64,000 nucleotides of DNA, taken from positions 302,720 through 366,719 of the forward strand of contig CANMPD010000002.1 in NCBI GenBank assembly GCA_947499635.1, in the 5' to 3' direction. Shown piece by piece: positions 25,360-44,234 of this stretch (within the stretch, counting starts at the first letter, position 1; every line of letters starts with the position of its first letter). Source of the DNA: an uncultured Paracoccaceae bacterium (GTDB taxonomy: Bacteria > Pseudomonadota > Alphaproteobacteria > Rhodobacterales > Rhodobacteraceae). Below the pieces are notes generated by a model. The model was not told the DNA's origin. It worked only from the letters and a program-made list of their open reading frames with translations, and did no database searches. A program made the translations under genes and the position numbers.

Positions 25360-25469
25360 ATGCCTCTTGCCTCCTGCGACAGTTGTTCTACGTTTGCGCA
25401 GACCCTAGAACCATTTAGGGCTGACGAAAACCAAATTGCACAGCCTTGCTCAAAGAAGGAGCCGCGCGT

Positions 25470-25955
25470 ATGATCTCAGTAGGAACCGCCCTGCCAGACG
25501 CCACCCTAATCGAAATGACAGCAGAGGGCCCGGCCCCGGTTGCGCTTTCTGATAAAACCAAAGGCCGCAAAATTGTGATTTTTGCTGTCCCTGGCGCTTT
25601 CACCCCCACGTGCCATGCCGCACATGTGCCAAGTTTTATCCGTACCAAAGACCAGTTTTCCAACAAAGGCATTGATGAAATCATCTGCGTGTCCGCCAAC
25701 GATCCATTTGTCATGGGCGCTTGGGGTGAAGCAACAGGCGCCACCGCAGCAGGCCTCACCATGCTTGCGGATGCCGACAGCAGCTTTACAGACGCGATCG
25801 GTATGCGCTTTGACGCACCCCCTGCAGGTTTGATCGGGCGATCTAAACGTTATGCAATGCTGGTTGAGGATGGTGAGGTAAAAATCCTTCACCTCGAAGA
25901 AAGTCCTGGCACATGCGAAGTGTCTGCTGGCGAAGCGTTGCTGGATGCGCTGTAA
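25470..25955 (+). CDS. Peroxiredoxin (Prx5/AhpE-like)
   Basis: VIFAVPGAFTPTCHAAHVPSF peroxidatic Cys motif; RYAMLVEDGEVKILHLEE. Confidence 0.92.
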   Translation: MISVGTALPDATLIEMTAEGPAPVALSDKTKGRKIVIFAVPGAFTPTCHAAHVPSFIRTKDQFSNKGIDEIICVSANDPFVMGAWGEATGATAAGLTMLADADSSFTDAIGMRFDAPPAGLIGRSKRYAMLVEDGEVKILHLEESPGTCEVSAGEALLDAL

Positions 25956-43604: not shown

Positions 43605-44105
43605 CTAATTCGTCTGTTTCAAGACCCGCTCTGCGTCAATCGCTCGCGATACACCAGCTGACACAGACTGTGATGCCGTCGAAATCTCGATCCGGCGAGG
43701 TTTGAGCGCTTCAGGTATTTCACGCTGCAAATCAATATGTAGCATCCCGTTCTCATGCGACGCACCCGTTACACGAACATGGTCTGCTAAAGTAAAACGA
43801 CGCTCAAATGCACGTGTTGCAATACCTCGATGCAGATAGCTGCGTTGTGGCGTATCTGAGGCAGAATTCACCTTTTGTCCCACAACAACCAGAGCGTTTT
43901 CCTTTAGTTCTACATTCAAATCATCCGCGGAAAACCCTGCAACGGCAATCGAGATACGATAGCTGTCTGCATCAATTTTCTCAATGTTATACGGTGGGTA
44001 GCTTGATTGTGGCGTATCTGCAGACAAAGTGCGATCCAACAGATCTGCGATCTGGTCAAACCCAATGGTGGCACGGTGCAGCGGTGTAAAATCAAAAGTA
44101 CGCAT
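43605..44105 (-). CDS. Hsp20 family small heat-shock protein
   Basis: MRTFDFTPLHRATIGFDQIADLL; YRISIAVAGFSADDLNVELKENALVVVGQK; RRFTLADHVRVTGA; start set at MRTFDF. Confidence 0.93.
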   Translation of the reverse strand: MRTFDFTPLHRATIGFDQIADLLDRTLSADTPQSSYPPYNIEKIDADSYRISIAVAGFSADDLNVELKENALVVVGQKVNSASDTPQRSYLHRGIATRAFERRFTLADHVRVTGASHENGMLHIDLQREIPEALKPRRIEISTASQSVSAGVSRAIDAERVLKQTN

Positions 44106-44187
44106 AGTCATCCTCATTCATGAGCAATTGTGAAATGTTACCTTCCCATCAGGACAGGCAGCTTAATATCAAGCCCCGCTTAGCGGC
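44106..44187 (-). promoter_or_regulatory. ROSE-like RNA thermometer in hsp20 5' UTR
   Basis: SD-sequestering hairpin AUU(G)CUC-AUGAAU-GAGGAU (44110-44128) plus two upstream hairpins (44140-44159; 44173-44187). Confidence 0.65.
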
Positions 44188-44234
44188 GACCCAACAATAT
44201 ACACATGGGACGTTGCTCTCTCATTTCAAGAGAG

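Follow-up and report, generated by a model that had tools for sequence, protein, structure and literature searches.

A probable ROSE-type RNA thermometer upstream of a Rhodobacteraceae ibpA gene

The ibpA gene and its upstream region

The window, a 64,000-nucleotide stretch of contig CANMPD010000002.1 from an uncultured Paracoccaceae bacterium, carries an ibpA-type small heat-shock gene on its minus strand, directly preceded by a three-hairpin element of the ROSE type that spans 44196-44100 and ends at the ibpA start codon (Table 1). An earlier note, made from the DNA letters alone, had called this gene hsp20, and the assignment held: the 166-residue protein matches the Pfam HSP20 family with an E value of 4.3e-18, is 51% identical to E. 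coli IbpA and, judged by these matches, is an IbpA-type Hsp20. Homologues open with the same short N-terminal motif, which indicates that the start at 44105 is correct.

The motif CTTGAA-N14-TCCCATGT upstream of the leader resembles the heat-shock sigma-32 promoter consensus. Of 110 homologous leaders, 73-76 carry a similar CTTG-N14/15-box with the same spacing, as compared with 0 of 110 control stretches further upstream. Because the end of the box lies 97 nt from the ibpA start codon, transcription would begin at about 44197, immediately ahead of hairpin 1 and upstream of all three hairpins, and would probably use sigma-32. The earlier note had reasoned that a transcript starting downstream of 44128 would undermine its reading; the sequence suggests no such start.

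Table 1 Features of the ibpA locus (positions in the window)
Feature	Position	Strand	Sequence, structure and basis
RpoH (sigma-32)-type promoter, putative	44203-44230	minus	CTTGAA-N14-TCCCATGT; consensus match; recurs in homologous leaders
Hairpin 1	44167-44196	minus	bulged G44187, loop 44182-44180; covarying helix in 110 and in 18 out-of-family leaders
Hairpin 2	44140-44159	minus	GCCU(G)UCC-UGAUG-GGAAGGU; bulged G44155; covarying helix
Hairpin 3, thermosensing candidate	44110-44128	minus	AUU(G)CUCA-UGAA-UGAGGAU; motif in 110/110 leaders; SD/anti-SD compensation C-G / U-A
Shine-Dalgarno (SD), within hairpin 3	44111-44115	minus	GAGGA; from sequence; AGGA-type SD in every homologous ibpA leader
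ibpA-type small heat-shock gene	43605-44105	minus	166 aa; start ATG 44105-44103

Three hairpins with bulged Gs

The leader ends in ...ACAAUUGCUCAUGAAUGAGGAUGACU-AUG, exactly as first read. In hairpin 3, the outer pairs A44128-U44110, U44127-A44111 and U44126.G44112 are followed by the bulged G44125 and then by the inner pairs C44124-G44113, U44123-A44114, C44122-G44115 and A44121-U44116, so that the UUGCU strand at 44127-44123 lies opposite the SD. The pairing that buries the SD and the unpaired G had both been described in the earlier note and were borne out, but the AUGAAU loop that it drew closes to UGAA through the A44121-U44116 pair. The two upstream hairpins that it proposed are also present, in altered form. 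For hairpin 2, a stem with a 5-nt loop and a bulge at G44155 is a better drawing than one with a mismatch, and hairpin 1 is longer than proposed and contains its own bulged G; placing the start of the element at 44187 clipped this hairpin, which begins at about 44196. The multi-hairpin ROSE architecture as such was confirmed, with three conserved and covarying helices.

By the published definition (PMC3669281, PMC11342760), ROSE elements lie in the 5′ leaders of small heat-shock genes and have two to four hairpins, of which the 3′-proximal one holds a U(U/C)GCU strand in imperfect pairing against the SD, with a bulged or non-canonical G in the anti-SD strand; on warming, the SD becomes accessible and translation increases. 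The leader in the window adjoins a conserved HSP20 start, has three covarying helices, sets UUGCU against GAGGA and has a predicted unpaired G at 44125; homology with a proven member, E. coli ibpA ROSE, emerged from the model searches below.

Conservation and covariation in Rhodobacteraceae

A protein search over 298 genomes of the family gave a match in 295, and we took 110 leaders, one per genome. In all 110 ibpA leaders, an SD comes after U(C/U)GCU. The anti-SD strand is UCGCU in 107 and UUGCU in three, including the window. In these 107 relatives the strand contributes a C-G pair at the position of 44126 (minus strand), whereas the window has a U.G wobble beside the bulge, which might lower the melting temperature of its leader.

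The covariance support in homologous hsp20 leaders on which the earlier note had staked its reading was found. When the 110 leaders were aligned by sequence only with MAFFT, the three helices had 87% paired cells, and 18 of their 25 pairs were changed on both sides. Double changes occupied 226 cells, as compared with 94 in shuffled alignments, and the covariation score was 0.225, as compared with 0.136 for shuffles, which do not correct for the relatedness of the leaders, and 0.100-0.112 when the helices were slid by one column, a control that keeps it. None of 500 shuffles reached the covariation of the helices. The SD helix is the least variable of the three, although its outer SD base varies. 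Covariation support is weaker in hairpin 3 than in hairpins 1 and 2, because three of the seven hairpin-3 pairs are invariant in the alignment. Taking the leaders of ibpA and of its paralogue hspD together, the anti-SD/SD pair was C-G in 96, U-G in 11, U-A in 30 and another combination in three, with no case of C-A. By these comparisons, the predicted SD-sequestering pairing is conserved and compensated across homologues.

The paralogue is a second hsp20 gene, of the hspD type, which lies outside the window in the same genome (G000:C2:280261-280671, minus strand) and starts with GTG. Its leader is ROSE-like but shorter, with two hairpins and UCGCUU opposite AAGGA, and lacks hairpin 2. Among 30 relatives, the hspD SD pair was U-A in 25 and U-G in three.

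An ibpA 80% identical to that of the window, preceded by a Roseobacter-type leader, came from record JAHVJD010000004.1, which is titled Nocardioides marinus, probably through mislabelling or contamination.

Model searches within and beyond the family

An HMM trained on the 109 leaders other than that of the window had this element as its sole match (E 2.3e-12). We also built a covariance model, R1, solely from Rhodobacteraceae ibpA leaders. In the genome of the window, whose leader belongs to the training set, R1 gave one significant match, at 60.2 bits and E 5.8e-9; its weaker matches elsewhere had E values of 1.4-7.9, and this search of the genome did not find the hspD leader. R1 recovered all 79 named relatives searched, some of them also in the training set, each at the ibpA start. 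Of 143 genomes drawn from across the class, 42 had a match with an E value no higher than 0.1, and the out-of-family loci that we fetched all stood directly before an IbpA-like reading frame (18/18). Covariation in these 18 leaders was 0.648, as compared with 0.245 when shuffled, in an alignment fitted to the R1 model. On a 10-kb stretch of E. coli K-12, R1 recovered the ibpA ROSE element (38 bits, E 5.5e-7) and, more weakly, the ibpB leader (E 0.00065), with no further matches in that stretch.

Apart from the ibpA leader, the motif pattern occurs once in the window, as UUGCU...AGGAG at 25446-25472 on the plus strand, before a peroxiredoxin-like gene. It is absent in 29 relatives, and we attribute it to chance.

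No Rfam family matched the window at its curated cut-off. The best match to the element was ROSE_2 (RF01832), which fell on the right strand and at the right start codon and aligned its first hairpin with hairpin 2, with the same bulge in both, but scored 20.0 bits against a gathering cut-off of 65; the same model scored 100.4 bits on the E. coli control and exceeded its cut-off in 0 of 81 genomes of the family. RF00435 (ROSE; cut-off 45 bits) matched neither the element nor any place in 101 Rhodobacteraceae genomes, and its best match in the class reached 41.9 bits. As no control genome reached the RF00435 cut-off either, we treated this silence as weak evidence and used the coincidence of matches instead: 15 of 23 weak RF00435 matches in the class fell at places found by R1. 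We read these results as indicating that the Rfam ROSE models are too narrow, rather than that the element in the window is something else. Separately, the locus of a relative has a strong match to the Rfam family Ruegeria Cis2_sRNA (103 bits; L020:456-608, minus strand), about 900 bases past its ibpA 3′ end.

Folding energetics

The minimum free energy of the leader was ordinary relative to shuffles (z -0.26, in a fold that included the promoter sequence). Over the 110 leaders, the mean unpaired fraction of the SD was 0.19-0.21, as compared with 0.40-0.44 when the upstream part was shuffled, and the SD was more paired than in these controls in 79-83% of leaders; for the leader in the window the difference was small. 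Between 20 and 42 °C, its SD went from 0.29 to 0.37 unpaired in a nearest-neighbour model. ROSE contains unusual pairs, according to the NMR structure as described in PMC11342760, and this model omits them, so the melting prediction speaks neither for nor against thermosensing. Hairpin 3 in isolation folds ambiguously in silico. Given no excess stability, little melting and this ambiguity, we did not count free-energy folding of the leader in the window as support.

A folding energy no lower than that of shuffles, together with the unconserved second occurrence of the motif, would also fit a hairpin that arose by chance in a leader without structure, but the covariation and the recovery of ibpA starts by R1 already refute this explanation, to which we assign next to no probability.

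With the bulged G removed in silico, the energy of hairpin 3 at 20 °C fell from -5.0 to -8.4 kcal/mol, and published ROSE mutants are in line with such stabilisation (PMC3669281, PMC11342760). This bears on whether hairpin 3 is a static structure that lowers translation at all temperatures, with heat induction coming solely from the sigma-32 promoter. The promoter-like box and the weak melting in silico would fit such an arrangement, but a static block would not need a bulged G that destabilises the hairpin, and this G is kept in 110/110 leaders; together with the homology to E. coli ibpA ROSE, this makes a static hairpin very improbable.

Bulged Gs and the residues for IbpA self-repression

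A near-invariant bulged G sits in the 5′ arm of every hairpin (44187, 44155 and 44125, minus strand), flanked by pairs that covary. The G is unpaired in 106/106 ungapped rows for hairpin 1, 107/110 for hairpin 2 and 110/110 for hairpin 3 in the family, and in 18/18 out-of-family leaders for each hairpin in the model-fitted alignment. The published ROSE discussion of a bulged G that we found concerns the hairpin-3 G alone. Conservation of the other two, as an alignment pattern, suggests a role beyond melting.

One possible explanation is binding by IbpA itself. In E. coli, IbpA acts as a repressor of its own translation by binding the ibpA leader; R93 is essential for this and Y34 must be aromatic (PMC10474464). 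The same study describes the roles of Y34, R93, R97 and K98 in self-repression, and its authors remarked on the conservation of R93 in alphaproteobacteria. At these positions the protein in the window has Y36, R98, R102 and R103, and the first two sites, Y34 and R93, are conserved in the ibpA (79/79) and hspD (30/30) products of the family; hspD proteins lack a charge at position 98.

Together with the near-invariant bulged Gs of hairpins 1 and 2, these residues would be compatible with a mainly autoregulatory leader, in which bound IbpA keeps its own synthesis down until it is titrated away by aggregates, and melting is minor. We consider this very improbable as the main mechanism, as in related ROSE elements the SD hairpin by itself responds to heat (PMC3669281); autoregulation, if present, is expected to act on top of thermosensing, most likely adding to it and not replacing it. 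A broader and rather doubtful extension is that hairpins 1 and 2 of alphaproteobacterial ibpA leaders are not mere scaffolding, and that their bulged Gs form a code for recognition by IbpA, or else for a tertiary fold, through which the leader would integrate temperature with aggregate load.

Interpretation

The anatomy, conservation, covariation, SD pairing and relation to the E. coli element lead us to conclude that the ibpA leader is very probably a ROSE-type RNA thermometer. The central proposal of the earlier note, a ROSE-like thermometer masking the hsp20 SD, is thereby supported by the motif in 110/110 leaders, by covariation and by E. coli ROSE homology, and from these we infer melting and translational induction by heat. 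In this scheme, a heat-shock sigma-32 promoter at 44230-44203 would drive ibpA transcription, and hairpins 1 and 2 would stay folded in a leader of about 92 nt. At low temperature, hairpin 3 would pair UUGCU with the SD around the bulged G and block ribosomes; heat would melt this weak hairpin, allowing IbpA to be made.

ROSE control of ibpA thus appears near-universal in Rhodobacteraceae, one of the major marine and environmental groups, and is missed by the Rfam cut-offs in the genomes searched; the two Rfam ROSE families could be extended, or bridged, with the help of the 110 aligned leaders. The bulged Gs and the kept RNA-binding residues of IbpA also make it directly testable, outside the gammaproteobacteria, how autoregulation by a small heat-shock protein and thermosensing would share one leader.

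Relation to known ROSE elements

The element belongs to an already known kind: a 2011 paper (PMC3230580) reports ROSE-like motifs in Nautella sp. R11, of the Roseobacter clade and so of the same bacterial group, where they precede the same two genes, ibpA and hspD. The passage of that account dealing with these genes states that typical motifs are recognisable, and gives no structure, covariation or test (PMC3230580). The details that we add are the bulged G in each hairpin, the two-hairpin hspD version with its compensated SD pairing and the self-repression residues kept in IbpA.

Among characterised elements, E. coli ibpA ROSE (RF01832) shares the gene, the alignment at the start codon, a hairpin with a bulged G and UYGCU against the SD; its strand reads UCGCU, whereas that of the window reads UUGCU and forms a U.G pair. 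RF00435, exemplified by Bradyrhizobium ROSE1, is likewise the leader of an hsp20 gene, with several hairpins over 94 model positions. The short ROSE-like thermometers of Pseudomonas ibpA also set U(U/C)GCU against the SD; their two-hairpin form resembles the hspD leader, whereas the ibpA leader in the window is longer and has three hairpins.
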